Assembly (NCBI GenBank): GCA_038049695.1
Contig: CP142457.1
Span: 28,543,001 to 28,607,000 of the forward strand
Reading direction: 5' to 3'
From: Cinnamomum chago
Taxonomy: Eukaryota > Streptophyta > Magnoliopsida > Laurales > Lauraceae
DNA: 64,000 bases
Shown: in pieces, positions 12,855-60,909 of the stretch
Numbering within the stretch: the stretch's first letter is position 1
Layout of the letters: every line of letters starts with the position of its first letter
Notes under the pieces: generated by a model
Seen by the model: only the letters and a program-made list of their open reading frames with translations
What the model was told of the DNA's origin: nothing
The model's database searches: none
Program-made: the position numbers and the translations under genes

Positions 12855-12996
12855 ATGGAGAAACAGAAGATGGGAAGAAGACATGGAAAGAAAAAAGACA
12901 ATGGGCAAGGGGCGGCAGCAAGTCCTAATGTCACAGAGACCTCCCGCATTCAAATCGCCAAACGGCTGGAAGAATTCCGAGATGGAGATGATGAAG
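12855..12996 (+). CDS. DExH6: Helicase exon 1
   Basis: Starts at ATG in CTCTCAACAATGGAG, preceded by a C/A-rich leader. Encodes 47 residues ([17 protein letters not shown] to FRDGDDE) plus one base. The donor is GAAG|GTATAA at 12997. The basic start and the [13 protein letters not shown] segment match the N-terminal flank of the R3H domain in this family. Confidence 0.85.
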
Positions 12997-15900
12997 GTAT
13001 AATCCAAAGCTATTCTTCTTCCCTTGTTTTTTTTTTTTTTTTCCTTCCGTCCTTCGAAAGTTTCGATTTTTAAGATGAATTTTGGTTCAATTAATATTGG
13101 GTAGGCTGCTTTTGGCAGTGGCTTCTGGAGGTGGGTCTGGTTATTTCTTGTTTATAAATTGATGGATTGTTGTTTTTTTGCTTGCTTTTGATGGTGGGTG
13201 TCGCTAACATGTAAGAAATCTAAGTGATTCTTGGGTGTTTTGGACGTGAGTTCTGCGGTTGCCGTGATAGTATCTGATGAGTTGCTTTGTCTTTGTATGC
13301 TTGCTGTTGATTTATATTAGGTCGTTTTAAATTGTTGGTATTGGTGCCGGTAAGAAATTTCTGTTTTTGTGTGTTTTGAGTTGCATTGAAGAAGTGGCTG
13401 TCAATACTCAATAGGGAGCAGGCATGGTGGAACCAGTGTAGGCAGGTTGAATAGAGCGGGGATTCATGTGTTATAGAGTGGAGTCACACAATTGTTTTCT
13501 TTAGTGGGGCACGACATTGTCTCTATTACTAGAATGCATTAAGCTGACCATAGCTTGATAGACTGAGGCTAAGATGATGCTAGCATGCTGTGGCGGAGCC
13601 AGGATTCTCTCTGTGAGGGGTGGGGCAGCAATAAATTTGAGAAAGAATTAAAAAAAATATATTGACATTATATTAGAAAGTTCAAGTTGTGTGTTCAACC
13701 CAATTTAACTCATAAAATAGCTATTAGATTATACCCCCAAAATGGTAAAAATGATTAATTTGTATCTCTCCATATCTAAAAACATTCAATATTGGGTCAA
13801 AAATACTAGAGAAAAATTTCAACTTGCATGATTTTAGCATATTTAATTCTGAGCATGTGTTTATAGTTAAAAAAACCAAATTAAATAACTTTCTTGAACA
13901 TCATAATTGGGGTTGATGTTCACAAAAAGTCTTGATCTTTGTCCCATCGTTTAAAGCTCAAATCCTTCTACTACTTTAACAAAAATGTTAAGGTTTTACC
14001 AAAAAAAAACCCCAAAAATGTCAAGGTTGGCTATGATGCCCAGATACGGCATGGATACGGCACGGACACGCAATAGAGACCGTAGGGACACGGATTTTAT
14101 ACATAAAAACTGAAGTATCGGATACGATACGACACGATACGTTGCCCATTTTAAAGTATCCGTGCATCATAGAAGGTTGGTGGAACCTTTGGGCATGTAA
14201 TTAATACAGAGAACTTTTTAACGCCTCTATTTATAGCCGTATGAAACCTCTTACTTAAGAATTAGATTTGATCTAATTTAATGCAAAACTTGAAATAAAA
14301 TTTCAAAAATTGGTGCAATCCCCTGAACCTCGATCGTAAATTAAATCAATCCTCGATAAAAAATTAGATCAATCTCCAATGGGATTGATTGAATCCAAAG
14401 ATGGATTCAGCCACTAGAGCACACTCAATACAATGGGAAACACCATTATTGAAGAAAAACTCAGAGAAAATCCTTGATTAATTAATAATAATCATGAAAT
14501 ACAATGAGGTTTGCTCATCCTTATGTAAGAGTTTGATCATCCTTATATAGGAGTAGGATTGATCCCTTAACAAGCAAGACTTTCTAAATAAAACAGGAAA
14601 CTAGCTAATCCTAATCAAACAATGAATAAAATTAGAAATAGTTTCTTGATTAATCAAAACTGAAAATAAAACCTATGGACTTAACCCAATGGACAAGGTT
14701 GACCTCTGGGTCAATGTGTTGGCCCAGTTGATTTCTTGGGCTTGGTCCATATGGCATCAACTCTCTCTGGCTTGGAAGAACTCGACTCCGGCAAGTAATA
14801 GCTTGATAATTTTCATAGAGATCTAGATTCAGGCGCTGGAGGTCATTAGCAGTGATCCATGTAACACCGGAGATCGGACGATTTTGCCATCGCACTAGAA
14901 TTTTTGGAATCCTCCTTGTCAAGTGGAAACAAGTTGATCATCGAGAACATCAATGATTTTACCTGCAGGTGGAGGAGTTGCTGGTAAGGTAATGGTCTGT
15001 TCTTCAGATTCTTTAATCATTGTCATGCCCACGATTGAGTGTGAGATCTGCAACATTGAAGGTTGGACTGACACAGTGTAATGCCCCTAGAATGTATTAC
15101 TTTATATACTGCCATAATCCACGTCTCTGGGCGCAAACTGCGGGGGGGAAAATTTGAACAATTAAAATTTTTCTGGCGGCCATGTGTTTCCTATAGGATT
15201 CCACGATGTGAGGGTGAGTAAAGTTTTCCTTGAAGTACAAAACTTTCAATGGAAGCTTGTGCAAACATTTCCACAGACATAAATATAAGATGAGACAAAT
15301 ATCTGAGTAAAGAACAACATTTCCAAGATGCATTGAAATTAAGGCTGGAGATATACAAAAGGAAGCATTTAAGAGTTATTTACAGTCCCAAAATGTTTGA
15401 CGTCCACTCTAGAGCCAGAACAATGCTCCATTGCACATCGTCTGTGCTCCATTTTAGTAAGCCCTGTGGTTCCTCTTGGACCGGAGTCGTCTCCTGCTTA
15501 GGGGTAATGGGGTCATTACCTACAACACCAATGCGTGGCATTATACTATGAAAATTGATAAAATACTTCTGAACAAAATAGCAAATTGGCAAGCCATGTT
15601 GATAAATTCTCCAAGCTGTCCGAATTCCCATTAAAGAAATATATAAGTATGGTTCTTTTAAACTTTAAACTGATGGCTTCATAATCGAATGGACTTGAAG
15701 TGAGATTAAGTTTGGGATCGGAGAGTTGAATACCATTGTATGCTGCAGATTGGTTGCAAAGATCTTAAGATATAATATAATGGATAAGATGTCGAGGACT
15801 CTCCAACTGCCTTACAAACCAGATAACGGCTAATGAGAGAACCGAACTGCTTGGCTATTAAGATCTTAATTTAGAGATAAACGGATCAAGATGAAGAGAG

Positions 15901-18900
15901 TATTTAAGAGTTAGAGCAAAGCACCGCCTTGAATTCCAAGGACTATATGGTCCAACAAAGGGGGTTGCTTTCAAATGCTGAACAAATCCTTCAAAACAAA
16001 CTTCCAAAATGGACATCCTTTAAAAATCTTCAAAGCTAACTAAATTAGACAAGTGGGCATGTCAAAGGGTAAAACTGATTGTACATGGTACCTACATGAG
16101 ATGCACTTGAAATAACAAGTACAATAATTATTAGACTGACTATTATGCAAGGAACCATTAACATTGCTATCCTTAGCCTTGGATTGCCATTAACATGCAA
16201 GGCAATACCATTCAGCTATATGTGTTCCAAGGATCCAGACTGTATAAGGATTGCAAGTCCTTCGGTGCTCCAATGGTCGTTTACATTCGGGATCCAATAT
16301 TCACAAATCTGACTTAGCAATGCACTTCACATGTCCCCGGACAATCCGGGTGCGAAAGTCATCTCAAACATTCACTTCCCATCAATCTCAACTATAAACA
16401 TTAAGTGAGTCCGGCATTATAGACAAAAACCCAAGTTATAGGGTCTAAGCTTGTACTTCGAAGATCAAGGGTTTAAATCCACTACGTGGTCCCGGATACT
16501 GCAAATTACCTGTGGTATCCGTACCGATACGGTCCGATACGGATACCGGTACGGGATACGGCTTGGATACGGCTTGGATACGGGGGGGGGGGGGGGGGGC
16601 AATTTCAGGATACGGCTTGCGCTATTTTTCGCCCAATATTTCGGCAGATTTTCCATTTCAGCCAATTTTTGTCTTTCCCTTAGTTTGATCAAAAGGAAAA
16701 CAAAAAAGAAGAAGAGGAGGAGGAGGAGAGGAGGAGGAGACCCACCTGCTTCGACTGCTGCTGCTGCTGTGACCTTCATGTGCCAGGTATTCCTCCTCTT
16801 CTTCTTCCTTCGTTCTTTTTTCTTTCTTTCTTTCTTTCCTTCTTCTTTTTTTTTTTTTTTTTTTTTTTTTTTTCTCTCTCATTCGTTTGTGCCCTAGAGA
16901 TGCCAACGAAAGGGCAGAAAAGAATCCATTGCTCTTATGTTTCTTTCATTTTTTAAGTTGGGCTACTGGGCCCATCAGCCACTCAGCCCATTTTTCTTTT
17001 CTTCTCTTTTTAATGTTGTGCTACTAATCAATCAGCCACTCAGCCCACTTTTCTATTTTTTCTCTTTTTCTATGCTGAGATATTGTATTGTGAGGCCCAC
17101 CTTATTGAAAATTTAAAACAAACAGTGGGCCTTGTAATATTTGAGCTCTAAATTGAGATAAAATAAGCATTCCACCTAAAATAAATCCCTAACCAAATAT
17201 TTATATTTATATATTTCTAGGAATGCCGTACCCGTATCCTAAGATTTTGAAGTTAACGTATTGGACGCTCGTTCCTGTGTCCCGTATCCGTACCCGTGTC
17301 CGTATCCGGGCATCATAGCCCACAAGGTGCAAAAGAGGGAGAAGATGGCCCCCAAAATAGTCCAAACAGGAAGGAAGGAGGGAAGAGGGGTAACAGGACC
17401 CCCTGGTTCTTCCATGGGGGATCACAGACTGACTGCATTCTAAATTGGGGGTCGTGGGACATCAACTCCTCCTTGTTTGACACCAGTTCCAATTACAGCT
17501 ATCAAAATAAACATGAACCTAACAAGCTTAACCACACAGTAAGTAGAATTTTCCAAGAATCTTCTACTTGCTTTCTTTCTTATTAGGGTTTTAAGTTGAG
17601 TGGAGAGATGAATGGAGAGATCGCTTAGAGTTTGGGAGAGAAGAGAAACAGAAAATTGATATGGAGAGAAAGAGGGCAGGAGAGAGAGAATGTTGGAGAG
17701 GGAGAGAGTTGTTTGGTTTGTGGAATGCAAGAGAGGGGTTGGCTGGTGTGTTTATAGAGGCTGGGTTTAAAGTCTCCTTACACAACTATTGTATGTCTAT
17801 CTCAAGCAAAAGACTTCTTTCTTATATATGGGAATGCTACAATTCTTGTTTGGGCCCATTGCTTACTTTAAGTAAGTCAAATATCTATAAGGGTTGTGTG
17901 GTCCTTTTATGCTACTTGGAATTGTATTTTTTTTATTTTTTTTTATAGTTGGATTAGAAGTCTTCCTTTCCTAGATATACCCATCTTACAACTAATGGCC
18001 CCCTTAATAGCAAGTCTGATTTCCAATTTAAATTGGGATACTAACTTATATTTATTTTTACTACAATAGGACTCTGAATTAAATAATGCAATGCTCTAAT
18101 AGGTCCCTTATGAGTATGCACAATGTTATATAAATTTAAATCTAAATTTGATCTTGCCATATGCTATCAACTAATTTAATTAATTAATTATTGATAATCA
18201 TAAGTTTACCCAAATTACTATATTTCTATATTATTTTATTTTTATCAAGTGTAAATTTACAGTTATGTCCAAATTGAACAATGGAGGCAACCAATTAGCC
18301 TAACTGCAAATTGGGACCTAGAATTATGGAAACCCTAGTAATTAATCCTAATTGCCCTAATTCATCTATTTGGGACCGAAATTCAAGGAAACCCTAGCAA
18401 TTGAGTAATTTTGGGTTTGGGTCTTTATAACTGTCCTGTAGGTGGTCGGAACCCCTGTAGTAGGCTCCGATTGAAATTAGAATAGGGACCCATTCTATAG
18501 ATAGACTCCTTGGCTTGGGAACCGAAGCGTCGTCTCGTCTGCTAATGCAACTCTTGCTCAACTCGTCGTACCTTGCCAGATATTTATCAGTGTTGGCAAA
18601 GTCAAACATTGGCATTTCATGCTTTATATTTGGGAGCAATCTCTCCTGGTAACGGTTGACCATTATGAAATCTGACTCATTAGTTTTGCATCGGATACAA
18701 AGCTCATGGAATTTATGAGTGTATTCATCTATGTGCATTGAACCTTGCTGCAAATTGAAGAGCTCTCTTTGAAATAAATCAAGATAATCAGATGGAAAAT
18801 ATTTGTCCTCCAATCTTTCCTTCATAACTTCCCATCGAGTAATAGGAGGACAGCCCATATTTTCATTTTGGTCGTAAATATTTTTCCACAAAATTCTAAC

Positions 18901-21900
18901 AGGACCTTTCAACTTTATCTTGACAATTGAGGATCTTCTATGTGGTACCAAGTGAAATAATCCTTAAGCGAAGTAAGCCAGTCAAGGAAGGCTTGAGAAT
19001 CAAGTTCCCAGAAAAATCAACAACATCTAATTTGACTTTCTTGGTGAAGTCATCTTGGCATGGGGCCCGTTGTATGTTATTAATTTCCCTCTCCTCAAAG
19101 AGACGTTGAAGGAACTCTTGGATTGATTCACGGGGACCAGTATCCAACTGACAACTCTCATTTTGTGGGCCAAAAGAGTTGGAAGATTCACAGTTAGGGT
19201 TGATTTCTAAGGCTTGCATCCATGAATATAAATCTGATATGCAGTTGTCACGCTGAACATCGGCGAGTCTATCACGAAAAACTTGATCAGTGCAGGTAGC
19301 CATGGGTGATTTTTTTTTTTTACTTTTTATTATTTATTTATTTATTTATACTATCGGTGGTCCAGGTTTGGGTTCAGGTCGGACCTGGTGTGTTAGAGAT
19401 TACTCTCTTTGTATGAGATCCAATCAACCGTGTCATTATTCATATGCTAGTTTAAACATTTCATTCTTTCATGTGTTTTTACTGCTTATCTTTGATGCCT
19501 TAAAAATTAAAATCATTACCTATGATGATCTGATTAGGCTGTTTCTATGATATCCCTAATTCACAATAGGCCTTCCCTTTTCCACGTTGTAATTAGCATA
19601 CATCCTGGTGTGTAGGAAGATCTCTCTCTCTCTGTGTCCAGGGGATGCCATTAGGGGTATGTGCATTATGACAGCTCTAGGCCATCTAATAAAAAACGGT
19701 TTGCAATGACTATATTAACTCAGCGCCTCTTAGAAGGTTGGGCATCTTGGATGCATGGAACCAAATTCTGTACGGTGCAAAGTATTGAAAAGATTTGAAA
19801 TGTCTGGAAAAAGTCGAACCCAGTTAGAAGGCTCAGCTTGGATGCATAGAATCAAATCTGGGTTGTTACTTGTTAGTACCGAGTATTACTAATTTTGGTG
19901 TTGACTAAGTTGGAAAGTCGAAACTGTAGTTTGGAGTTTAATTCCATATTTGGATGGGAAATGTTTTCCATTGATCTATAGTCCCCATATTTCACCTACC
20001 CACGTGGGCCATCAGATGCCATCATATATCATTTTACCGTCAGTTTTTTTATGATCCAAGCAATATTATATATATATATAAGTACACTCCCATGCCAACC
20101 CCCCCACCCCACCCATGTTTATAATATATTCATATACGCCTGTGTTATTAAATTGGTAAACTTTGTAGGTTGATCGCATTTCAGAAATCTTGTGAATTGA
20201 TTTAATTATACCCTTCAAGGGTATAAAGGAAAGAAAGCTTATGAATTTTGTAGCTTGATTACATTAAGAAAGGCTTTTATATGTTGATCGACCCATATTC
20301 TCATCCCTCTCATCTGTGCTTGCTGGCCCATGACATCTGGTTGGATATCAAAACATGGGTCATTGGTGGACTAATTTGTTTTTAATCTTTTTGTTGAATA
20401 TAAAATAATTTTTCATTTTTCTACCACTGTTTTTTGTATTCTCGAAATGGAATTTTTTCTATTGAGAGTAGAAGTTATTTTGATGTGAATTGGGGGTGAC
20501 CAAACCGTCTTATCTTTGTTTAAGAGGAAACCAAAGTGTTCTTTTGAGATCTTACTGCTGTTTTCTTTTCATTTTTTACATGCAGTGTACACATTTGAAT
20601 CCACATTGACCAATCCAGAACGTGCTGTGGTGCATGAAATGTGCAGGAAAATGGGCTTGGTATCAAAAAGCTCCGGGTGAGTTTAAACATGTGACGATTT
20701 TTACCTGCTAACGTTGTAAATAATTTTGACCTAGTAATGTTTAATCCCCGTGCTTGCATTAATTGAGTCGCTCGACTAAAAGAGCAGCATAATAGGAACT
20801 TATCAGCGGCATAATGGGAACTTATCACACAACTGATATTTTGTAACCTCATATTTTGAAAAGGAGTCAGATTATCCTTGTAGATATCAAAGATAGGGCT
20901 TCGGAGCATAGTTTCCAAAATTGGAATCATATCGCAAATCGTTCATACCCATGAATCAAATCGAATCGCGAGTCATAAGATTTTTTATTTTTCAAATAAA
21001 AATGAAAAATAATTAAAAATTAAAAGAAAAAGAAAAAAGTAATTATTCATAACCATCAATTTTCCCATTTATAGCAGTATAAATATAATAACAAGTAAGT
21101 CTATCAGATAATTGTATCAAGAACATCATGACAGATATTAATATATATGAAATAAATGATGTGTAAATAGTTAAATAAGTTTAAAGTATCAATATATATT
21201 TTATTATCTTTAAATCAAAATAGAAAAATAAAAATAAAATCCAAACCATCAATCTTACATAGTAGGATATCTCTTGAAGTTAAGAAAGTATTCCTAAAGA
21301 AACATACCAAAATAGATTAAAAAAAGAAGATATAGACAAACACCATATGTACAATTGAATGCTTTAGTTAATTGCATGTTCTTTATTCATCTTTAAAACC
21401 TTATCAAAGTTGCAAAAAACTCCTAGGAGGTTTCATTAACTACTAAATAACATTTTACAAATAAAAGCACTAAAAGAAAGAAAGAATAAAGAAATAAAAA
21501 AGGTGAAAGATTATTAATATTAACTTATTGGTGCTAGAGGTGGCAAATGGGTCGGGCTAAACGTGTCGGACCCGTTTATTAAATGGGTTAGATGCATTTA
21601 ACCTGCATCCGACCCGCTTATTAAATAGGTTAGAAACTCCTAATCCGCGTCTGCTGCGGGTCAACTTGACCCAACCCGCATTAACCCACATAACCATTGT
21701 GGGTTGTTGTGGGTTGGGTTGATCCGCACAATTTGCACCCAAACTTGAATTTATTAACAAGAGTTCTCTAATGCTTCAACCATACCCAAAGTTTAAATTA
21801 GACCCAAAATGATAAGTTAATTTATAAAATCGAGATAAGATCTAATGAACAATCCTAAACTTTCTAAATCTTATTAGTGCAGTTTGAAACCTATCATGAT

Positions 21901-42900: not shown

Positions 42901-45900
42901 GTCCCACTACCAGTTCTACCTACAGACGTCCAACGCCCAGACTGGACGTTATGCCATACTTTGGAAACAATTGTGGCCCAGGTGGGACCCATCTCCACAA
43001 GGGTCCATCTAGGCAATGGTCGCCCAGGGGTCTACTATTAGATCCCTGGGTGTGATGCTTGAATGCGTGGGCCCCCTGATCACAGTTCCACATCGACAGA
43101 TCTTGTATCTGTCGATGGGGTTGGAAACCAGGCCTCTGGCTTGAGTTTCTCATCCATTTTCTCCTCCCTGATCAAATCAACACCTGTATACCATTACACC
43201 TCACATCCAGCATTAAGCAGACATCCATAATCTATTGCTGATTAAATTGGGGGATTACAGATCTTGGTCTAACCCCAAAGGAATTTCCAAGATCTGCCAG
43301 TAATCAAATTTTTGATCCTGGTTTCCCCCTTTTGGGTTTTATTCAGGAATCATATAAACACAGTATACCCAAGAATCTACAGATCTATGTATTTGGAAAG
43401 ATCACTCACCTCCTAGTGTAGCAGATTGTGGCACGGTTGATGTGGGATCTCGAGTGCTGCACCCACTAGGCCTTCCGGCTTCTTCCTCCTTCCCACAAGT
43501 CTGGTTGGTCTCTGTTGATCTTCAGAGGAGATCTCTCTTTCTCCACTCTGCTACCTTCTTCTTTGGAAACCAGATACAAACCATGGAGATCAATATGGGA
43601 ACTAATAAGAGAGAAGAAGAGGCCATCTGGGGATAACCCCAAATTTGATTCGTTGGAACCACCCCCCCCCCCCCCTCCCCCCCCCAAGTTCAGAGATAGC
43701 TATTCCTCTCCTTCAGGAATACCGTTCTAACAATTAACAACACATATGGGCCAAAATGTTTTAGAAACAGGTTAAGACAACCCAACCCAACCCAGTAACT
43801 TATGGGCCAGACAAATCTGGGCCTAATCTGGCCCAGGTATTACAACTTACAAAGAAGAATAACATCTCACATCGACCGTCAAGAATAATGAAGTAATCCG
43901 GCTTGTCCTCAAGTGACAGGGATCAACAATGGTGGAACTATGATAAAGATATGAACTTTGACAGGTAAGATTTGCAGAGCACCTGTTGATCAATATTAAT
44001 ATTTAACATGTGCTTTGTTTTATTTTATAAGACGGACTGCTATTAGGTAAAAAGAGGCAATACATCTCCAAGAGTCAGCATCTTCTTTTGCTTGATACAA
44101 AGTGCTACATTTTATACCTTGTAAGAAAAGGATAATACAAAGTAATCATAGAAGTTCAGTTAAATGGAAGCTCCCAAATAGAGATATCAATGGGGAAAAA
44201 AATACTAAAAAACAAAAAACTACAAATACAAATCTGCCAAAAGAATTGGACCTTCCTTTTAAGAAATATATAAGAATGTAACACAGGTATTCTAGATCAG
44301 CTCTTCTGCTCCGTTCTGTATAGAGGAGGGAGTGCCGATCAAAGTAAAAAAATTCGAAATGAACAAAGACAAACTGAATTTGTTGCAGCTCAACATCAAA
44401 TACTTATTTTAGTTGTTTACACTTAAAACGACCACTTCATTCATTAACTCTGAAGTTTGAAGTTAGTAGTAACGTTAGCATAACAAGCAGTTTTTATGAG
44501 ATTCTTGTTTTCCCTTTAAAGAAAGGCATGGCGTTTCATTGAAATATATGAGAAGAAGAAGAAGAAGCAGCAGCTTGCAATGATGAAAGAAATAAATGTG
44601 TTAGAAAATGATCAAAATTTTTCAATTTAAGCCTCATGAGTAAGAGCAATAATAAATAAGTATATTCATGTTTGGTCTGGATTCCTACTGCAAGAAAAAT
44701 GTGATAGCGAATGCTCTCGGTCGCCGGAAACATCTCTTGACCACCATGGCTATTTCTGTACCGGGCTTCGAGCAAATCAAGGAGGAATATGAGACAGAGA
44801 AAGACTTTGGCACCATATATAAAGAGATCCGTCAGGGTGAGCATCTCAAGCATCCATACTTTAGCATTCATGATGGATATTTATTCTATGGTAGTCGCCT
44901 CTGTTTGCCAAATACATCTATCCGAGAGCATGTTATCAGGGAACTCCATTCTGGAGGATGTGGCGGACATTTGGGTCGTGATAAGACCTTCGCTCTTGTC
45001 GGAGATCGATACTATTGGCCACACATGATACACCCTATGTTTCTCGTATCTGTGAGCGGTGTCGTACTTGCCAGTTGGCCAAAGGAAGCAAGAAGAATGC
45101 GGGGTTATATCAGTCGTTGCCAGTTCCCTAGGGCACCTAGGAGGATATCAGCATGGATTTTGTACTTGGGTTGCCTATGACCCGCAGAAAAGTGGACTCA
45201 GTATTTGTGGTTGTGGATCGTTTCTAAAAAATGGCTCATTTTATTCCTTGTACCAACACAGCAGATGCCTACAAAGTTGCACAACTCTTCTTTAAGGAAG
45301 TTGTCTGTCTGCATGGACTTCCAAAGACCATTGCGTCCGACAAGGATACAAAGTTCGTTAGCTACTTTTGGAAGACATTGTGGGGCATGTCCAAAACAAA
45401 GCTGAAATTTTCTACTGCTTATCATCTACAAACTGATGGTCAGACAGAAGTCGTCAACCATAGCCTTGGGAATCTGCTATGTTGTTTAGTGCGAGACCAT
45501 CTTACCACATGGAATCAGGTTTTGCCTATGGCTGAGTTTGCATATAATAACTCAGTCAACCGGTCCACATGGATTTCTCCTTTTGAAGAAGTTATTGGCA
45601 CCAGACCACGTCTATCGGTTGATCTTGTTCCCCTTCCTGTAGAAGCAAGACCAAGTGTTGATGCGGACAATTTTATTCGCCATTTGTAGCGGGTTCATAA
45701 CGAAGTTCGATGCCATATTTCAGCAAGCGATGATTCATATAAAGAAGATGCAGATAAGCACCGTCGTTTCATTCAGTTTGAGGAAGGAGATATGGTTATG
45801 CTTCGTAATCGTCCAGAGTGCCTTACGCCGGGAGCCCACAAAAAGCTGAACTCCGGCAACTCCGGACTGTTTAAAATTATCAAGAAAATTGATCTTAATG

Positions 45901-48900
45901 CATGTGTTGGATTTGCCCGCAGATCTTGGTTTGAATGCTACATTCAACATTGAAGATCTTACACTCTATAAGGGCCATGACCAAGATAGCCCGTCGAAAG
46001 AACATGAGATTCAGCTACCACCCTCACTAGCCCCTGCAAATAAAATTGTTGATGTGCTTGATGATTAGATTGTCTCCACTAGACAAGTGCGATTTTAGAA
46101 GTTTCTTGTTCGCTGGAAGAATCGTCCAATCTCCGATGCCACATGGTTACAACTACCGATTTCCAGCGTCTTAATTCTGATCTTTACGAGAGATATCAGG
46201 CCATTAATTCGCCGGAATCAAGTTTTTCCAAGCTGGGGAGAGTTGATGCAGGCCGATCGAAGACCAGGACCCGCAGGCCCTGATGGACCCGCTTGATGGG
46301 GTCCACATGATCTCTAATTTTGAGATCCCTATCATTAGTTAGATAGTATCTAAATTAGTAGAGTGATTAATATATTTTTCCTAAATTCTATTTTTGATTA
46401 GGTAGTTTCTTATTTTAGAATGTCTAGGTTATTAAGAAACAATATTATTACTCTATATATATAGAGGAGTCTCCGATTGTAATAGTCATGCTATATTCTA
46501 ATACAATTCAAGAAATTCTCGTGCGTGAGTTTTGGTATTTCCCTAAGTGATCTTAGGGCTTGGGTTGGAAGACTCGATCTCACCGTTGGAGGTGTTGATC
46601 TTCATCAGTTCCGTGTTGGATCCAGATCTAGCCTAGTTCTATCGATCCATTTGCATCTGGAACTAGTTTGGATGGATGGTGAATTGAAGTAAAGTGAGGT
46701 GAAGTATCAACTCGAGAGAATAATATATAAGGGGGTTATGATGGTCTTTTGTTTTTAGTTGTTTGATAGGGAATTTTTTTGACTTTTTGTGTAAAAAGAG
46801 AATGTTTTTTGGTCATTTAGTGGAGAATGGAGGTTGTTTTTTGACCTTTTTTTTTAAAAGAAGGGAATTTTAAATTTGTGTACTTTTGATATGACCCCTG
46901 GTCTTTTCTTGTCTGGATAATGTAGGCTTTACCTCACTTTACTTCAATTTTCCATCCATCCAAACACGCCCGCAGATCTGAGATCTTTCCAATGGTGATG
47001 ACTGCAGATCCGAACAGGGCTGTTGATGTGAGACTGCCCAAAGAGGGAAAATTCTGATTCAGTGAACTGAAATAGAACACTCTAAACTTAGTTGCATGCA
47101 GGTATACTCCATAGGGTTCTGAAACCGTTTTGTAAGGCGCAGATGAAGGTCCAAGATGACAATATGAGAGATGGAAAACAGAATATGAATGTGATGAAAT
47201 GTCGTGTCCTTTGAGGATCGACTAAGCTTCATATAAATAGGGGCTAAAGGCCCTAATTACAATCAATTTACATAATCATATCAAATCTAGATCCTAACAA
47301 TTAGCTGCTCTAATTACAATCATATCAGATCTAGATCCTAACAATTAGCTGCCAAACTTAGTATGTACACGAGGCTTTGACTAATGATACATATAAAGAA
47401 TGGGCCTAAATGGGCCTGCGAGTTTGGGCTTGGAACACCCTCATTAACACCCCCCCTCAAATTGATGCCGATGAGTCAACAAGCATCAATTTGTCAGTCA
47501 AGAATTGATGACGTGGTCGAGGAAGTGCTTTAGTAAAAATATCAGCAGTTTGGAGGGTTGAGGAGATGAACGGGAGGGAAATAACATTGCGTAGATATTC
47601 ATCTCTGATAAAATGGCAAGCCACCTCGATGTGTTTAGTTCTTTCATGAAATACTGGATTTTCAGTAATCCGAATGGCACTGGTGTTATCCGCCTGTAAT
47701 GGTGTGGAAGATTTTTGTGAGAAGCCCAGTTCCTCAAGAAGACCACGAAGCCATATAATTTCGGAGCATGCGGCAGACATGGCCCGGTATTCTGCCTCGG
47801 TTGATGATTTTGAAACTTTGTCCTGTTTCTTCACTTTCCATGAAATAAGAGCATCACCTAAGAACATGCACCAGCCTGTGGTGGACCTACGAGTATCAGG
47901 ACAACCTGCCCAATCAGCATTAGAATAGGCAGACAAAGTCATCTGAGAGCCAACAGGAAAAAACAAGCCTCTGTGAGAAGTGCCAAGAAGATAACGAATA
48001 ATACGTCGAACAACTGCTAAATGAAGATGATGGGGCTTGGTCATATACTGACTCATCAAGTTGACTGCATAACTGATGTCAGGCCGAGTAGTAGTCAAAT
48101 ATATAAGACTACCGACAAGCTGGCGATAATATGTCGGATCAGGAAGAGGATCACCACTGTCACTACGGAGTTTAAGATTCAGTTCCAGAGGAGTATCCAC
48201 TGGGGTGGATTTTGACAAATCGGCGGATTCAATTAAATCCATAGTATACTTATGTTGATGCAAAATCAACCCCTTCTCAGAGTGATGAACTTCCAATCCC
48301 AAAAAATATTGCAGAGGGCCCAGATCTTTCATATGAAAAGATTGATGCAGAGAAAATTGGAGACTTTGAATCGTGGCTGTATCTGTGCTGGTGATGATGA
48401 TATCGTCTACATAGACGAGAAGAATGGTGATTCCAGTTGATGTGTGATGCAAAAACAATGATGGCTCATAAGGACTCTGCTGAAACTGTAGCTTGAGTAA
48501 AGCATCTTTGAATTTGTCAAACCATGCTCGTGGTGCTTGTTTTAGCCCATACAATGATCTTTTCAGAAGAGCAACTTGATCTTCTGATGATTTTGTGAAA
48601 CCTTGAGGCAATCGCATGTAAACTTCCTCTTTAAGATCACCATGAAGAAATGCGTTTTTCACATCAAATTGAAAAAGAGGCCAAGATTGAGATGCAGCTA
48701 TGGCAAGGATGGTGCGAACAGTGGTCATTTTTGCAACAGGCGCAAAAGTTTCTTCGTAGTCAATGCCATATTCCTGTCGGTTGCCAAGGGCCACAAGCCT
48801 AGCCTTGTATCTATCCAAAGTACCATCTGCCTTTAATTTGATAGAGTAAACCCATTTACTCCCAATAGGTTTAACCGAAGCTGGGCAGGGAACAGTAACC

Positions 48901-51900
48901 CAGGTTTGGTTCTGCTGTAGAGCACTAAGTTCTTCTTCCATAGCCTGTCTCCAGCACTCCTGTTTTGCTGCTTGTGAATAAGAAGTAGGAATGGATACAG
49001 ATGATAAAGTAGCAAAATATGAAGAATGAGAGAAGCCGTATCGATCCGGTGGACGAGATATACGAGCAGAACGACGAATAGCAAGTTGAGGTGAAGTTGA
49101 TGCTGGAGCAGGATTCGGGACCGGTTCTTGCAAAAGGGGCAAAGTAGTGGGATCTGGTCCTTGTCGACGAGTATACACCTTGTCCGGATGAAATCGCAAA
49201 GGCGAAGGAAGACATTCATCATCAAAGGATGGTACTTTAGAAAAAGAGATTTCTGGAGATGAATCAGGATAAGACTGAAAAAAGTACTGATGTTAAAAAA
49301 AAACAACATTTCTAGAAATGCGAATACGCTTGGAGGTGGGGTCATAACAAACAAAACCTTTTTGGTGGGAAGCATAACCAAGGAAGACACATTTTACAGA
49401 TTGAGCGGATAACTTGGAACGTTCATGTGTGGGAAGACGAAGAAAAAAAATACAACCAAAAGTGTGGAAATTTGTGTATTGTGGTTCCGTTTTGAAAAGA
49501 CGAAAATGTGGTGATGTGTTTTGAAGTTTTGGAGAAGGAAGGCGGTTGATGATGTGAGTAGCAGTGGTTAAAGCTTCTGGCCAAAATCTAGGTGGAATGG
49601 AAGATTCTAATAATAAACATCTAACCATGTCTAGAAGATGACGATTTTTTCGTTCTGCAACACCATTCTGTTGGGGAGTATAGGGACAAGTCCGTTGGGA
49701 TATAATCCCTTTGTCTTGTAAAAATTCCTGAAATTGTTTGGACACATATTCCCCTCCTGAGTCGGTCCGAAGAGCCTTAATACATGTTGAAAATTGATTT
49801 TGAACATAATTCAAGAATTTTTTAAACACATCAAAGACTTCAGATTTGGCATGTAGAAAATAAATCCATGTAAAACGGCTATAATCATCAATAAAAGTTA
49901 CGAAATACTTATACTGTGAATGAGAAATAATTGGTGCAACACCCCAAACATCACTATGTATTAAATCAAAACTTTTGGTAGCAGAAGAAACATGTAATGG
50001 AAAAGGCAAAGTTTTACTTTTTCCCAGCTTACAAGTGGTGCAATCAAGAGTAACATCTGATGATAAAAACTTCATTTTATTGATATGACCAGAATTTAAC
50101 AAAGATAACAAAATGGTTGAATTGGGATGGCCTAATCTATTGTGCCACAACTACACATTATTCCTAGAGACAACTGATAAAGCGAACACAGACATATCTG
50201 GATTTGGTGTTACTATGTGAAGAGGAAACAACCGCCCACACTTAGGCCCCTTCACTATCACCTTCCCTGTCTCCTGATCCTGCACCACACAACCAGAGGA
50301 GGAAAAGGAAACATGACAGTTATTATCAACCAATTGACCAACAGAGATTAAATTGGTAGAAAGATTTTGGGAACAAAAAACATCATGTAAAGGTAGAGAA
50401 TGAGAAATATCACCAACAGAGGTAATTGGTATTGTGGTACCATTAGCAGCATGGACCTGAATCTGTCCATCATATGGTTTAATTGTGGAGAAGTTTTTGG
50501 AGGATGATGTCATATGATTGGAGGCACTAGAATCAAAATACCAGTGAGAGGAAGATTGAATTTTACCAGATATACCAAGAGTGGAAAAAGCCTGGAGAAT
50601 CATCTGTTGGATCATTTCAGGGGAAACTGGAGCAGCAGAAGCAGGTGCCGAAGAAGATGTGGAAGATGAATCAATAGTGCCAGTAGCAGTAATCGCCTGG
50701 TAAACTTTCGGATTTCTGTTTTGAGGACGCTTGCGGCATTCATTGATGGAATGTCCAGATGCTTTGCAATAATTGCATATCCGCTGCTTGCACTGATTTG
50801 CAAAATGGCCGAAAGTTTGACACTTGAAACATTGCACTTTACTCATATCTCTGTTTGGTTGCTTCCCCTTGGAAGAATAAGTAACATTGACTGATGAGTG
50901 TGGTGATTGAAAGGCAGTGGGTACACTATAGGCAACATCAATAGTACCCGGACTAGCTTGGTGGAGCACACCAGATTGCGTCAATTGTCTCTGTTCCTCT
51001 CGCAGTAATTCATTGAGACAGTCATCCAGGGAAGGAGAAGGGACCCTACTCATGAGATTAGATCTGATCGATTCATACTGAGGCCTTAATTTCATAAGAA
51101 ATTGATCCCGATGACTAGTTGCTAGTATTACTTGCAATTCGGGAAGAGCTTGTGCAGAAACACTGGCATATTTGATTTCATTTAACTCTGTCCACAAATT
51201 CTGAAAACCAGAATAATATTCTTGAATGGAAGAAGTCCCTTGCATATAATTTGCTATTTCAAATTCCAACTGATACTGTCTGGCAGAATTTCCTTGATGA
51301 TACACCTTTTGAAGATAGGTCCACATATCTTTGGCAGTTTTGTATGGTTTTAAATTCATGAAAAATTGTGGTTCCATGGACCCAAGAATCCAAGATTTGA
51401 TCTTAGCATCTTTTGTGTTCCATGACACAATTTTCTTCTCATCTTCTGTTGGTTGTGGATCAGTTCCAGAGATATGGCCCCATAATTCCTTACCCTCTAG
51501 GTAAAGTTCCAATTGAAAGGACCAAGATGGGTAATTTTTGCCATTAAACTTGATTAAGTTGATTTCAGATTTCTCCATATGTAACAACCAGCAGCAAAAG
51601 ATCAAGCCAAGATCTGAGATTTTAAGAGATCTGGATGACCACGTGGGACCCACAGAGATTGACAACCAGTCACAATAATGGCAGAAAAAAAAGAAACACA
51701 GCCAGCCAAACAGTCTGCCAACAGTCAAACAGCGGCACAACAGTCCAACAGCAGCACAGCCAGCCAAACAGTCAAACAGCCAACCAGCGACAGAAAAAAG
51801 AACTCCACACGTCCATAGTCGTTAGTGGAAAAAACTCCACGTGGGCCCCAGATGATGATCAGGGATCTGATCAGATAGGGAGGATAAAAGGACAACCAAA

Positions 51901-53635
51901 ATTCGCCACTAGTGGAAGAAGACCCACTCCAATTGGATCAAAATCCACAATATTGGACGGCCGTGATGAAATCTTCTTGATAAAACATAAATATCACAAA
52001 AAATTATAGATGGCCTACCTCTGATGTGCCATAAATCTTGAAAAAATGATCATAAAACAGAAGAGGACCAGACGACCAAGATGGGTGATTCCGCTGATAT
52101 GGTGATTATGATCACAGGTGGGCCATGTCTGAGTCTGAGTTGATCAGGGCCACGTCTGGATGATCAGAGTGAAATAAGAAGCTCTGAAAGGCTTCCAGAT
52201 CCTGGAAGATGACCACCAGCAGCTGCTGATGATGATCACTTGTGGGCCACTCCTGATCTGATATGATCAGGGATGATCAAAGAAGATCAATGGCTTCCAA
52301 CGCTTGGAAGATGACTAGGAGATGATCACAGATGATTAACTTTGCTCTGATACCATGACAGTATGAGAGATGGAAAACAGAATATGAATGTGATGAAATG
52401 TCGTGTCCTTTGAGGATCGACTAAGCTTCATATAAATAGGGGCTGAAGGCCCTAATTACAATCAATTTACATAATCATATCAAATCTAGATCCTAACAAT
52501 TAGCTGCTCTAATTACAATCATATCAAATCTAGATCCTAACAATTAGCTGCCAAACTTAGTATGTACACGAGGCTTTGACTAATGATACATATAAAGAAT
52601 GGGCCTAAATGGGCCTGCGAGTTTGGGCTTGGAACACCCTCATTAACACAAGATACCCTGCATACCCTGCAGACAGCTTGTATGTCATGGATGAGGAGCC
52701 CTTTTGAGTTTTGGACCGTATATCTTCTACACGGGAGAAAATGCCGGGCAGATAATATAGTTTGAAGAGCTTTTTTTTTTTTTGCTAGAATGTCTTATTT
52801 GTGGTAACTCTAAAGCCTAGACCTCCGCAGAGAATATTTGAGAACCTGTTTCTGTGAGGGCCTTTTTGCTGAATGCTTTTAAGTGGGAGTTACCGCAAGT
52901 ATTTAAACAAAGGGTATCTCAACCTTATGGAAGTGGTCTCCACATCAGACCACGTTGTATGTAGTTTTGGTACAATGACAAAATGGGAACCTTGACAAAT
53001 ACAAAAGGAAGCCAAATGTGAAGTTGTCTCTTCTCTTTGCGGAAGTGACTCAATTTATAATAGTTCTTGTTAAAGGCTAAATTAGCGTCCGTAATTACCT
53101 AATTACATTCTGATCACATCCTGGAAGATAATTTACATATATGATAGTCCTCTTGATTGTGTATATGTCTACTTCTGACGTATTGTAGTCTGCAGGACAA
53201 TATTTCTTCTACATTTTTTTTTATTGGTAACAAACATGAAATGAACCCACAAACTCAAGGTTGCATACAGACTTTCTAGTTGCTACCCACAGGATGAACA
53301 TGTTCAGTGTTAGTCCTTCCATTATTGACATCAGTAGCGTCCGTCACATTAATGATCTGGAAAGAACCCTTGGCTCTACATGTACAAATGGGTGCCTCAG
53401 CTACCTGTACATTTCTCTTGCTGAGGTTAATGATCTGCACTTCCTTTAGAATGAGTCTTCTGAAGACTCATGTATGTTTTCCTTGTTGATCGATAACTAT
53501 TTTCGTTGTTCATTAGAAAATTTAGTTTTTTTTTTCCAATCTTAATGATAATCATCTTCTCAGTTCTCTTTGTTTTATGTTCTGAAGCAGGTGGTCCTGA
53601 TATCTGGTGAGACTGGTTGTGGGAAGACCACTCAG
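12855..53635 (+). CDS. DExH6: DExH6/NIH-type R3H-domain DEAH RNA helicase, 5' five exons (partial)
   Basis: The joined exons (12855-12996, 20586-20676, 30690-31008, 31328-31402, 53591-53635) give 224 codons with no stop and consistent phases at every GT/AG junction. The product is the N-terminus of a nuclear DEAH-type ATP-dependent RNA helicase of the plant NIH/DExH6 family. It has a Lys/Arg-rich start (nuclear-signal-like), an R3H single-strand nucleic-acid-binding domain (about residues 27-90, with the R60-x3-H64 signature in [14 protein letters not shown]), a linker, then motif I / Walker [12 protein letters not shown], at residues 214-224. The rest of the helicase core (DEAH box, motifs III-VI, HA2/OB regions) must lie beyond the window; I found no next exon to 64000. 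Introns are about 7589, 10013, 319, 22188 and at least 10365 bases, loaded with transposons. Choice between the NIH and DExH6 paralogues is not certain. Confidence 0.88.
12997..14022. other. Start of helicase intron 1
   Basis: A T-rich intron opening with a run of 17 T near 13027. From about 13600 (TGGCGGAGCCAGGATTCT) to 14000 the base composition turns A/T-rich and repeat-like, but I cannot name the element. No coding signal. Confidence 0.4.
14031..14172. mobile_element. 142-bp MITE with CTATGATGC ends and 8-bp TSD
   Basis: The left end CTATGATGCCCAGATACGG and right end reading (reverse complement) CTATGATGCACGGATAC form terminal inverted repeats. The flanking 8-mer AAGGTTGG is identical on both sides (14023-14030 and 14173-14180). 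The interior repeats GATACGG/GATACGA words. An 8-bp target duplication suggests a hAT-type MITE. A longer relative ends at 17318 with the same CATCATAG terminus. Confidence 0.8.
14200..14760 (-). mobile_element. 3' LTR region of a minus-strand chromovirus
   Basis: On the minus strand, a purine tract (CCAGAGAGAGT) abuts TGATGCCATATGG at 14759, the LTR start. A TATA-like CCTATATAAGG follows near 14555. A closely similar segment occurs at 33430-33758. The LTR's far end is not defined; a second TATA-like word near 14225 may be another LTR or element. Confidence 0.5.
14650..15080 (-). pseudogene. Chromodomain end of Ty3/gypsy integrase (fragment)
   Basis: The minus strand encodes [20 protein letters not shown] followed by [13 protein letters not shown], matching the C-terminal chromodomain of plant chromovirus integrases, which directs insertion to marked chromatin. 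The polyprotein ends shortly before the purine tract and LTR. Upstream pol is missing; the gag of probably the same copy lies at 18394-19303. A sister copy of this block is at 33640-34085. Confidence 0.7.
15090..16450. other. Intron 1 sequence without a recognised element
   Basis: No confident gene or transposon. A minus-strand frame at 15631-15380 ([38 protein letters not shown]) is not low complexity but I do not recognise it; it could be a decayed exon or transposon piece. Confidence 0.3.
16480..17318. mobile_element. Longer relative of the CTATGATGC MITE, GGATACGG-repeat ends
   Basis: The left part (16490-16580) repeats GATACGG/GGTACGG words and has a 17-base G-run at 16582-16598. The right end (17262-17318) carries CCGTATCCGTACCCGTGTCC and finishes CATCATAG, the same terminus as the 142-bp element. 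The left terminus is not clear. A long T-run (16847-16874) and GGA repeats lie inside; the short frames here are low-complexity. Confidence 0.55.
17319..18393. other. Intron 1 sequence between MITE and gag remnant
   Basis: 17600-17740 is GA-rich (GGAGAGAGA words). 17750-18390 is AT-rich. No gene supported. It may hold decayed pol of the flanking chromovirus, but I see no motif. Confidence 0.35.
18394..19303 (-). pseudogene. Ty3/gypsy gag fragment, minus strand
   Basis: Starts (minus) at [20 protein letters not shown] and, after a frame break near 18940, continues with [40 protein letters not shown] and RYQERLLPN, the conserved core of the plant Retrotrans_gag capsid region. Gag here, with a chromodomain 3.3 kb downstream on the same strand, outlines one chromovirus whose pol is largely deleted. 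The same gag start is seen at 33415-33355. Confidence 0.75.
19304..20585. other. Rest of intron 1
   Basis: A T-run and (TTTA)n at 19311-19348, then ordinary AT-rich intron sequence. 19720-19860 has a short diverged repeat (AGAAGG(T/C)T..GGCATCTTGGATGCATGGAA and CAGCTTGGATGCATAGAA). 20098-20117 is C-rich. The acceptor tract ends at 20585. Confidence 0.4.
20586..20676 (+). CDS. DExH6: Helicase exon 2 (R3H core)
   Basis: Acceptor ATGCAG at 20585, donor CTCCGG|GTGAGT. Ninety-one bases complete the split valine codon and encode [20 protein letters not shown] then [10 protein letters not shown], the R3H core, with two bases carried into exon 3. No ATG-initiated frame reveals this exon; it was found by homology and splice-phase matching. 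Confidence 0.88.
22460..25083 (-). pseudogene. hAT-family transposase (BED finger, DUF659, hATC), broken
   Basis: Read from 25083 on the minus strand: [19 protein letters not shown], then a BED-type zinc finger ([20 protein letters not shown]). Next is a DUF659-like part (24663-24367: [20 protein letters not shown]). Then the catalytic-region strand [20 protein letters not shown] and [20 protein letters not shown] (24200-24050). The C-terminal dimerisation motif ([14 protein letters not shown]) lies near 23170-23100, followed by an acidic tail ending [13 protein letters not shown] near 22480. Stops and frame changes occur between these parts, and some gaps may be introns. No intact transposase can be made from this copy. 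It belongs to the large plant hAT family seen as BED zinc-finger proteins; it would cut and paste elements with matching termini. Confidence 0.75.
25084..27164. other. Unclassified repeat-like insert, LTR-like start
   Basis: Begins near 25108 with TGATCGTGCCCCAAGTGTAG and a GTGAAACCGGGTCGATCCAC word common to several plant LTR-type repeats, and may end near 27168 at GGACTTATCA. GA-rich tracts at 25840-26100 translate to nothing meaningful. No coding domain seen. Confidence 0.35.
27265..28015. repeat. Tandem array, ATCATTGGTGGGCCCCACTGATG core, 130-185 bp spacing
   Basis: The core ATCATTG(G/C)TGGGCCCCAC occurs at about 27280, 27412, 27575, 27706 and 27890. Between copies GATGGCTTGATGATGC, a CAGAATTTCAGC-type phrase and ATCATATATA recur. 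The last two units are near-identical over about 185 bases (27700-27880 vs 27884-28065). Confidence 0.8.
28095..28190. repeat. ~30-bp repeat, TGGTCGCTGCTCCTCGC
   Basis: TGGTCGCTGCTCCTC, its variant TGGTTGTTGCTCCTCGC and GGAATGG/GAATGG spacers recur four times. The overlapping frame is a product of the repeat. Confidence 0.6.
29201..30689. other. End of intron 2 with an LTR/PBS-like remnant
   Basis: 29356-29366 has a TATA-like ACTATAAAAAG, and 29457-29468 reads GGTATCAGAGCA, matching the initiator-methionine tRNA primer site of many plant retrotransposons. A second, similar phrase (AGGTATTAGGGCAT) follows at 29556. From 29685 to 30360 several GTAGCGGCC/GGCCGCTAC-like words occur on both strands and may be ends of an unnamed MITE. 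No coding region. Confidence 0.45.
30690..31008 (+). CDS. DExH6: Helicase exon 3
   Basis: Acceptor GTATAG at 30689; donor AGAAAG|GTTCTC at 31009. Encodes the end of the R3H region ([17 protein letters not shown]), then [20 protein letters not shown] and a polar linker to NEAAHLRK. The phase is 2 in, 0 out. Confidence 0.88.
31328..31402 (+). CDS. DExH6: Helicase exon 4
   Basis: Acceptor ATGCAG, donor CACCAG|GTTCCT. Exactly 25 codons, [20 protein letters not shown] then INSHQ, the conserved lead-in to motif I in DEAH helicases (LPI..FKDAI). Phase 0 at both ends. The intron before it, 31009-31327, is the only normal-sized one. Confidence 0.88.
31403..31954. other. Start of 22-kb intron 4
   Basis: Ordinary T-rich intron with T-runs at 31430-31447 and a 24-base A-run near 31685. 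No gene supported. Confidence 0.4.
31955..32297 (+). mobile_element. 5' LTR of a gypsy-type element
   Basis: Runs from TGTTGCAAGAGGGCCTGTGG to GTTGCATCA (343 bp), with TATTTATAGGAGG as TATA-like box near 32131. The primer site TGGTATTAGAGCC follows at 32300-32312. It shares phrases (CATGTGTGGGACCCAAG, ACATTGTAGAGA) with the solo LTR at 57515-57870, so both belong to one family. Confidence 0.65.
32300..32312 (+). other. Primer binding site (tRNA-iMet-like)
   Basis: TGGTATTAGAGCC lies two bases after the LTR end and differs by one base from the usual TGGTATCAGAGCC complementary to initiator Met tRNA. It fixes the + orientation. Confidence 0.7.
32313..33354. other. Retrotransposon leader-like, C-rich sequence
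   Basis: Follows the primer site; 32380-32900 is C-rich with many CCATC/CCACC words and no supportable frame. From 33000 it carries short A-runs. Probably the untranslated leader of the + strand gypsy element plus unclassified insert. Confidence 0.35.
33355..34085 (-). mobile_element. Minus-strand chromovirus junction: chromodomain, LTR, gag start
   Basis: In minus-strand order: a decayed chromodomain region (34085 to about 33775) aligned to 15080-14770; a purine tract and LTR start TGATGCTGTGCGG at 33758; a TATA-like CTATATATAG near 33478; then a gag start ([12 protein letters not shown]) at 33415-33355 matching 19303-19260. A pol end joined through one LTR to a gag start is the order expected where two copies share an LTR or have recombined. 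The LTR is shortened. Confidence 0.6.
34300..35470 (+). pseudogene. Ty3/gypsy gag and protease remnant, + strand
   Basis: 34530-34811 encodes [20 protein letters not shown], then [20 protein letters not shown] and [15 protein letters not shown], the plant gypsy capsid core. A zinc knuckle near 35125-35168 (FHCKQ, stop, [10 protein letters not shown]) has an in-frame stop. Then 35199-35468 ([15 protein letters not shown]) resembles the lead-in to the aspartic protease, whose catalytic Asp-Ser-Gly is not recognisable. It is probably the coding part of the element started by the LTR at 31955; a minus-strand fragment has landed between them. Confidence 0.65.
35711..36440. mobile_element. Uninterrupted copy of the outer DNA element (empty site)
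   Basis: It aligns with 20903-21534 joined to 29037-29200: GTTCTGAAAATCGAAATCAT at the start, GATTATTAATATTAACT in the middle, and GAATCGTAAGATTTCATT near the end. Where the other copy has ATTGGTGC-hAT-ATTGGTGC, this one runs straight through (ACTTGCCTATGGCTATTCTC). It is non-coding, about 730 bp. The right terminus is unclear because another repeat begins near 36430. Confidence 0.75.
36650..37115. repeat. ~200-bp tandem repeat, GAGGGTGGGC(C/G)AAGAACTT unit
   Basis: AGGGTGGGC occurs at about 36664, 36885 and 37072, each followed by GTAACAGTGCT or GTGACAGTGCT. CCATTTAATTTTGCATAGAATAGTACT and TACTCAAATTAAATGGCCCACT phrases repeat in the first two units. About 2.5 units remain; they probably lie inside an unnamed MITE-like block starting near 36430. 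Confidence 0.7.
37116..37762. other. AT-rich intron sequence before LINE
   Basis: No gene or repeat recognised beyond short A/T runs. Confidence 0.35.
37783..40873 (-). mobile_element. Nearly full-length RTE-clade LINE with 20-bp TSD
   Basis: A 3.09-kb minus-strand element flanked by ACGAAAT(T/C)AGATTCTATTAA at 37763-37782 and 40874-40893 (19 of 20 identical). It carries a single open frame, endonuclease then reverse transcriptase, as in plant RTE LINEs. The 3' end on the minus strand contains GCCGACCCCACCTAGTGGGA. The 5' leader is short, about 110 bases before the first ATG at 40760. The size agrees with a complete RTE element, so it inserted whole and later decayed. Confidence 0.85.
38028..40760 (-). 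pseudogene. RTE LINE endonuclease-reverse transcriptase polyprotein, frameshifted
   Basis: From 40760: an AP-type endonuclease (40760-39579) with [25 protein letters not shown] and, near its end, [11 protein letters not shown] supplying the usual Asn, Glu, Asp/Asn and His positions. Then, after a frame change near 39579-39250, a reverse transcriptase (39250-38489) with [39 protein letters not shown] and the catalytic [10 protein letters not shown] further shift leads to the C-terminal part (38366-38028: [39 protein letters not shown]). At least two frameshifts prevent one intact protein. The enzyme would nick DNA and copy its own RNA into the nick. Confidence 0.85.
42800..43080. repeat. ~175-bp diverged duplication rich in GGGTCC/GGGCCC
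   Basis: GTCGCCCAGGGGTC(C/T)ACTA followed by AGATCCCTGGGT occurs at 42841 and 43019, each followed by TGATG and GTGGGCCCC phrases. Confidence 0.65.
43661..43685. repeat. C-run
   Basis: Two long C-runs separated by one T (15 then 9 C). The overlapping Gly- or Pro-rich frames are not genes. Confidence 0.9.
43850..44655. other. Intron 4 sequence before gypsy pol remnant
   Basis: No recognised gene; a (GAA)n run at 44551-44570. Possibly decayed pol of the following element. Confidence 0.3.
44660..46240 (+). pseudogene. Chromovirus RNase H end, integrase and chromodomain, broken
   Basis: 44668-45180 encodes the RNase H end ([14 protein letters not shown]) and integrase start with the His-His zinc-binding part ([28 protein letters not shown]). 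After stops and a shift near 45060-45230 the catalytic core follows: [78 protein letters not shown]. The chromodomain near 46090-46180 ([17 protein letters not shown]) has stops just before it and a shift after. Asp and Glu of the DDE set are visible in part. Reverse transcriptase, protease and gag are not adjacent. Confidence 0.8.
46244..46607 (+). mobile_element. 3' LTR of the chromovirus remnant
   Basis: GGGGAGAGT (purine tract) abuts TGATGCAGGCCGATCG at 46244. A TATA-like CTATATATATAG lies near 46456 and the probable end is GATCTTCATCA at 46607 (364 bp). Only loosely like the LTR at 31955, so the two need not be a pair. Confidence 0.6.
46666..46965. mobile_element. 300-bp MITE with ~38-bp inverted repeats
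   Basis: The left end GTTTGGATGGATGGTGAATT continuing GAAGTAAAGTGAGGTGAA is matched by the reverse complement of 46926-46965 with few mismatches. Target duplication not clear. Its terminus GTTTGGATG and the GTAAAG words are like the insertion at 11013-11936. Confidence 0.8.
46966..47151. other. Intron 4 sequence left of copia
   Basis: Ordinary sequence, continuing at 52654 right of the copia insertion. Nothing recognised. Confidence 0.35.
47157..47449 (-). repeat. Copia 3' LTR
   Basis: 293 bp; TATA-like CTATTTATATGAAGC on the minus strand near 47230. Differs from the other LTR at three positions (near 47162, 47242 and 47319). Confidence 0.95.
47450..47461 (-). other. Copia polypurine tract
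   Basis: Minus strand TTTGAGGGGGGG directly before the 3' LTR start TGTTAATG; it primes plus-strand DNA synthesis. It begins within a few bases of the polyprotein stop. Confidence 0.9.
47457..51578 (-). pseudogene. Copia gag-protease-integrase-RT-RNase H polyprotein, two stops
   Basis: One frame throughout, probable start [19 protein letters not shown] at 51578 (the frame is open further upstream, but the Leu/Cys/Phe-rich stretch before is not Gag-like). Order: Gag capsid; two zinc knuckles ([28 protein letters not shown]); protease with [12 protein letters not shown], where the usual D-S-G/A reads D-S-S; integrase zinc site (WHNRLGHP...CTTCKLGK) and DDE core ([24 protein letters not shown]). 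Reverse transcriptase follows with [12 protein letters not shown] and YVDDIIIT, then RNase H ([25 protein letters not shown]). A TAG at 50151-50153, just before the integrase, and a TAA at 49293-49295, between integrase and reverse transcriptase, interrupt it; no frameshift is seen. About 1374 codons if read through. Confidence 0.92.
51660..51800. repeat. CAGTC/CAGCC short repeats in copia leader
   Basis: AACAGTC, CAGCCAAACAGTC and CAACAGCAGCACAG words are clustered in the untranslated leader between the primer site and the Gag start. GATGATCA-rich repeats continue at 52090-52340. Confidence 0.6.
52344..52355 (-). other. Copia primer binding site
   Basis: Minus strand TGGTATCAGAGC immediately follows the 5' LTR end, an exact match to the standard initiator-Met tRNA primer site. 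Confidence 0.95.
52356..52648 (-). repeat. Copia 5' LTR
   Basis: 293 bp, TGTTAATGAGGG to CTGTCA on the minus strand, with TATA-like box CTATTTATATGAAG near 52430. The internal duplication AATTACAATCA..ATCAAATCTAGATCCTAACAA occurs twice in each LTR. Confidence 0.95.
52654..53590. other. End of intron 4
   Basis: No transposon recognised. The last hundred bases are T-rich with the acceptor GAAGCAG at 53590. Short frames near 53261-53489 have no family likeness. Confidence 0.4.
53591..53635 (+). CDS. DExH6: Helicase exon 5 (45-bp Walker A micro-exon)
   Basis: Acceptor GAAGCAG with an upstream T-rich tract, donor ACTCAG|GTTACC. Encodes [15 protein letters not shown], helicase motif I, binding the ATP phosphates through Gly-Lys-Thr. 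Phase 0 at both ends, so it joins exon 4 directly across a 22.2-kb intron; skipping it would keep frame but delete the ATP-binding loop. The following exon, expected to begin like VPQ, is not seen. Confidence 0.85.
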
Positions 53636-54520: not shown

Positions 54521-54524
54521 GAGG

Positions 54525-60906: not shown

Positions 60907-60909
60907 TAA

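Follow-up and report, generated by a model that had tools for sequence, protein, structure and literature searches.

Can five short exons, with 672 coding nucleotides spread across 40.8 kb, belong to a single helicase gene that is still intact? The question is raised by a 64,000-nt stretch of contig C7 (C7:28543001-28607000, + strand), referred to here as the window. A sequence-only reading had assigned the exons to a helicase of the NIH/DExH6 type and predicted that the remainder lies downstream. We traced the gene beyond the window in 200 kb of the same contig (C7:28606001-28806000). The genome contains 1,061,006,199 bases (1.06 Gb) in 14 contigs, and C7 coordinates equal window coordinates plus 28,543,000. 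The analysis indicates with high confidence that the window holds the 5' portion of a complete NIH-type R3H/ankyrin DEAH-box RNA helicase gene, apparently present once in the genome, whose introns have probably been swollen by transposons.

All five exons were located where they had been placed (Table 1). The four introns between them have the sizes given earlier and all are bounded by GT-AG. The splice phases of exons 1-5 (1, 2, 0, 0, 0) match and the joined frame is free of stops, as had been noted. More than 10.4 kb was thought to follow exon 5, consistent with the 12,109 bp measured for intron 5. Beyond it, exon 6 starts with VPQFLLDHMW, which is the VPQ exon predicted downstream. The predicted DEAH-type box is found as DEIH in exon 9. 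The remaining exons follow one another on this strand, their phases fit, and the extreme length and intactness claimed for the gene are upheld.

The complete model has 14 coding exons with 3,741 nt, encoding 1,246 residues with no internal stop. It spans 71,825 bp from ATG to stop, at C7:28555855-28627679, and 5.2% of this is coding. An in-frame stop is located 24 nt 5' of the ATG in exon 1. Introns 5 to 13 measure 12,109, 128, 9,217, 1,708, 1,255, 138, 2,089, 525 and 806 bp. GT-AG borders are found in 11 of the 13 introns; introns 12 and 13 require GC donors, and intron 3 has a weak one, GTTCTC. The intron-12 join is backed by the alignment to DHX36 described below, and the join between exons 13 and 14 by the open frame and splice sites only. 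If intron 3 is retained, the frame stops five codons into it. In transcripts that end within intron 4, the frame would continue briefly before a stop.

Table 1. Coordinates of the helicase gene, its predicted protein and related loci. Positions are window coordinates unless a contig or residues are given; exons 6-14 and introns 12 and 13 are located beyond the window.
Feature	Position	Strand	Remarks
Coding exon 1	12855..12996	+	142 nt; N-terminus and start of R3H
Intron 1	12997..20585	+	7,589 bp; retrotransposon gag fragment at 18394-18963 (-)
Coding exon 2	20586..20676	+	91 nt; middle of R3H; spliced copy on C9
Intron 2	20677..30689	+	10,013 bp; hAT-like transposase remnant
hAT-like remnant in intron 2	zf-BED 24682-25083; DUF659 23894-24259	-	
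Coding exon 3	30690..31008	+	319 nt; end of R3H and linker; spliced copy on C9
Intron 3	31009..31327	+	319 bp
Coding exon 4	31328..31402	+	75 nt; helicase core begins
Intron 4	31403..53590	+	22,188 bp; LINE, Gypsy remnant, full-length Copia
LINE remnant in intron 4	38489..40799	-	RVT_1 and endonuclease domains
Gypsy-type remnant in intron 4	44656..45180	+	Integrase_H2C2
Copia LTR retrotransposon in intron 4	47157..52648	-	gag, integrase and RVT_2 domains
Coding exon 5	53591..53635	+	45 nt; Walker A (motif I)
Intron 5, part in window	53636..64000	+	whole intron ends at 65744 = C7:28608744
Coding exon 6	65745-65835	+	starts VPQ
Coding exon 7	65964-66022	+	
Coding exon 8	75240-75401	+	
Coding exon 9	77110-77162	+	DEIH box
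Coding exon 10	78418-78451	+	
Coding exon 11	78590-78679	+	
Coding exon 12	80769-81773	+	
Intron 12	81774-82298 = C7:28624774-28625298	+	GC donor GCAAGC
Coding exon 13	82299-83393	+	
Intron 13	83394-84199 = C7:28626394-28627199	+	GC donor GCAAGT
Coding exon 14	84200-84679	+	supported by its open frame and splice sites
R3H	residues 32-89		Pfam, 43.3 bits, cut-off 26.8
DEAD	residues 200-365		Pfam, over cut-off
Ank_5	residues 467-507		Pfam, 30.7 bits, cut-off 27; between helicase lobes
Helicase_C	residues 559-686		Pfam, over cut-off
HA2_C	residues 780-843		Pfam, over cut-off
OB_NTP_bind	residues 911-998		Pfam, over cut-off
C9 open frame (L043)	C9:61343635-61344992	-	407 aa, no stop; helicase and ATPase fragments
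Other helicase match group	C5:78.80-78.84 M		at least about 42.6 kb, if one gene
Other helicase match group	C5:75.83-75.86 M		at least about 28.4 kb, if one gene
Other helicase match group	C7:61.30-61.32 M		at least about 26.1 kb, if one gene
Other helicase match group	C1:4.58-4.61 M		at least about 25.0 kb, if one gene
Other helicase match group	C4		at least about 19.1 kb, if one gene
Other helicase match group	C10		at least about 13.6 kb, if one gene
Other helicase match group	C1:100.29-100.30 M		at least about 11.5 kb, if one gene
Other helicase match group	C6		at least about 5.0 kb, if one gene

Domain searches support the joining of these exons. The 224-aa product of spliced exons 1-5 contains a Pfam R3H domain (E 5.9e-12, 45.9 bits). 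When exons 1-4 were scanned singly, R3H was found on exon 2 only, at 26.0 bits and below the cut-off of 26.8, and exons 1, 3 and 4 gave no Pfam match. R3H exceeds the cut-off only once the exons are spliced, indicating that the exon phases carry real information. The 3' part of the same product aligns to DEAH helicases in the PDB up to Walker A (best E 7.4e-6). In the 1,246-aa protein, ten Pfam families are found at E <= 0.001. In addition to those in Table 1, the single-repeat Ank model exceeds its cut-off; Ank_2, AAA_22 and nSTAND3 fall short of theirs. The downstream helicase core is thus present, and motifs I (GETGCGKT) and II (DEIH) are intact. No YTH domain is found among the ten families, as expected of the plant form, and this argues against the name YTHDC2 for the protein itself.

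The best relative in the PDB is DHX36 (5vhe), which aligns to residues 179-401 and 544-1010 with an E value of 4.6e-179. Ten of the 13 exon joins are located inside the aligned stretches, which are gap-free at each of them, and two more inside the R3H match. The remaining join, 13/14, is outside every alignment. The assignment of the helicase to the NIH/DExH6 type is predicted from domain order. The order of the domains is that published for plant NIH (PMC5832417), in agreement with the identity proposed earlier.

The five longest introns (1, 2, 4, 5 and 7) account for 61,116 of the 68,084 intron bases (90%), and recognizable transposon genes are found in three of them (1, 2 and 4). The domain scan covered 18 intron ORFs and two ORFs upstream of the gene. 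Transposon-type families are over the cut-off in 9 of the 18 intron ORFs, and two more have sub-cut-off matches only (DUF802 and SH3_Tf2-1). No family was found in the other seven scanned, and the single ORF scanned in intron 5 has none over the cut-off. The two LTRs of the Copia element in intron 4 differ at 3 of 295 positions (98.98% identical), and the element is flanked by a 5-bp target duplication, CAAGA. Two in-frame stops interrupt the element's own frame. At substitution rates of 0.7-1.3e-8, the insertion is younger than a million years. Subtracting the element leaves an intron 4 of about 16.7 kb. The introns were probably once of ordinary size and became swollen through successive transposon insertions.

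Several features are found on either side of the gene. Degenerate tandem repeats with units of ~21-62 bp occupy window positions 368-893. An ORF 5' of the gene (window 3720-4367, - strand) matches the plant mobile domain (PMD) at 37.0 bits (cut-off 34.9), which together with the gene family and the transposons points to a plant genome. The next ORF on the same strand as the gene starts at 88141 (C7:28631141) and, judged by eye, has the look of a P-loop kinase (GHPGTGKST).

A genome search with exons 1-5 returned 11 matches. Four belong to the C7 gene, six are weak matches to the P-loop regions of other helicases, and one is located on C9. This last is a copied fragment, and apart from it no use of the exons in other genes was found. 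The fragment is part of an element of 2,407 bp with direct-repeat LTRs of 425 and 427 nt, identical at 405 of 431 positions. Two bases past the first LTR is TGGTATCAGAGCC, and a purine run, GCGGGGAAGAA, immediately precedes the second. These correspond to primer-binding and polypurine-like sites, hallmarks of LTR retroelements. The element is bounded by ATGGT and ATTGT, a candidate target-site duplication in which four of five bases are equal. One full-length copy was found in the genome search.

Between its LTRs, the C9 element contains exons 2 and 3 in full together with 11 nt of exon 4 (9 match). The copy is identical to the spliced C7 gene at 358 of 423 nt and ungapped across joins 2/3 and 3/4. 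When the inner part was used for a DNA search of the genome, 33 matches were found, one of them to itself. Two are exons 2 and 3 of the C7 gene, which are separated by 10 kb there and lie side by side in the copy. Six are ordered pieces along 14.5 kb (C6:78647866-78662328), which are head to tail in the element; four come from a relative on C3. The other 20 are dispersed places that match the first 254 nt, which probably represent the leader of a retroelement. The C6-derived part encodes a GHKL-type ATPase (PF13589, 34.2 bits, cut-off 25), presumably MORC-like. The C9 element carries spliced mRNA pieces from two host genes, with parents on C7 and C6. Since exons 2 and 3 are free of the intron in it, the copy shows that the join across the 10-kb intron was made in mRNA. 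It also favors the 3/4 join, through the 11 nt of exon 4.

Over the 138 codons of this one pair, the C9 copy and the C7 gene differ by a dN of 0.135 and a dS of 0.32. The ratio of 0.42 is consistent with one constrained and one free copy. The LTRs have diverged by 0.058 compared to the dS of 0.32, indicating that exon capture predates the present insertion. The maize element Bs1, likewise an LTR element, carries spliced pieces of three host genes combined in a single hybrid frame (PMC13317346). The donor genes are different: those of the C9 element are an NIH-type helicase and a GHKL/MORC-like ATPase.

Searches with downstream parts of the gene point to a single copy. Exons 12-13 gave 34 matches, two in the C7 gene and 32 elsewhere at 26-56% identity; none of the 32 covers the ankyrin part. 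OB_NTP_bind gave 17 matches, one of which is the C7 gene, and the short loci around the others hold distant relatives only. The scored candidates, the best from each genome search, include no second copy of the helicase, and among these the C7 gene appears to be single-copy. The other helicase matches were assembled into groups from their positions alone. If each group is one gene, they span 5 to 43 kb, suggesting that great length is a trait of the genome as well as of the gene; 72 kb would then be the longest helicase span seen, along a continuum. A DEAH relative at C11:2377001-2397000 (L040 and L041) contains a gap of ~2.5 kb just after its GKTTQ-like motif. In the C7 gene, the 12-kb intron 5 occupies the corresponding position.

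The gene is probably still working. It could instead be a recently silenced pseudogene, with an open frame but a transposon load that ended full-length transcription. A 5.5-kb Copia element with nearly identical LTRs inside intron 4, the weak donor in intron 3 and the GC donors in introns 12 and 13 are in line with such a loss, and the gene is known here from DNA sequence alone. However, there are no stops or frameshifts across 3,741 nt, the helicase motifs are intact, no replacement copy was found among the scored candidates, and the dN/dS against the retro-copy is 0.42. Introns of comparable size are also reported for many working plant genes (PMC12122422, PMC10246380). We consider silencing very unlikely.

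Two further readings question the joining of the exons. The 22 kb between exons 4 and 5, and the stops soon met when intron 3 or 4 is read through, could mean that there are two genes, one with exons 1-4 for an R3H protein and another with exons 5-14 for a helicase. However, exons 4 and 5 belong to one fold and the DHX36 alignment is uninterrupted over their join; exon 5 by itself has only 45 nt, and R3H followed by the helicase is the order typical of the family (PMC5832417). Two genes are therefore extremely improbable. The chance that misplaced repeats have pushed the exons apart in the assembly is equally slight. The introns are rich in repeats and the model was built on assembled sequence. 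Against this, the joined 263 kb of window and downstream sequence contain no N, and all 14 exons are ordered on one strand. The ends of the Copia element bear a target duplication, indicating that its insertion is real.

As a single complete gene, the locus would be transcribed through its long introns and spliced into a 1,246-aa ATP-dependent helicase, predicted to bind RNA through its R3H and OB parts. Genes whose introns are heterochromatic depend on IBM2 in Arabidopsis and rice, and transcripts terminate early inside the intron without it (PMC7145194). By analogy, transcription through the transposon-rich introns would probably need IBM2/EDM2-type machinery that prevents premature polyadenylation. 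The introns could also serve as a switch, in which the state of heterochromatin sets whether an R3H-only RNA-binding competitor or the full helicase is made. An R3H-only protein of ~190-235 residues would result if intron 3 were read through or if transcripts were polyadenylated prematurely in intron 4, and the 407-aa frame on C9, over the same R3H piece, could supply a further competitor. We regard such a switch as unlikely.

The complete helicase gene with swollen introns suggests that a conserved, apparently single-copy RNA helicase can remain intact while its gene expands to 72 kb, 5% of it coding. It also indicates that DNA is enough to reconstruct such a gene, provided that exon phases and domain models are used jointly with a retro-copied fragment. 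The gene is well suited to testing annotation programs that limit intron length, and equally to testing how intronic heterochromatin is controlled. According to a grape study, prediction programs split genes at large introns (PMC3058033), in agreement with the earlier remark that gene finders would report fragments here. According to a 2018 paper, the function of plant YTHDC2 homologues was unreported to its authors' knowledge (PMC5832417); having the gene model right contributes a little in this respect.

The C7 helicase shares R3H, a core with inter-lobe ankyrin repeats, HA2 and OB with Arabidopsis NIH (nuclear DEIH-box helicase) and animal YTHDC2. Homologues with the YTHDC2 architecture but without YTH are described in green plants, including Arabidopsis NIH (PMC5832417), and the C7 helicase likewise has none. 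Compared to these proteins, its gene is 72 kb long, and the likeness to NIH is judged by domain order. DHX36 has the helicase core, HA2 and OB in common with it. Its alignment breaks at residues 401-544, the ankyrin part of the C7 protein, and leaves the R3H part uncovered.

Many plants are known to have giant introns filled with transposons. In grape, 2,697 introns are longer than 3 kb and consist mostly of repeats (PMC3058033), and one pine has 18,536 introns longer than 20 kb (PMC12122422). In Sapria, 23 genes contain introns longer than 100 kb and are called functional by the authors (PMC10246380). Introns of 10-100 kb in these plants have grown mainly by LTR elements and LINEs (PMC3058033, PMC12122422, PMC10246380), and those of the C7 gene are the same in kind. 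The gene is a strong but ordinary example of them.
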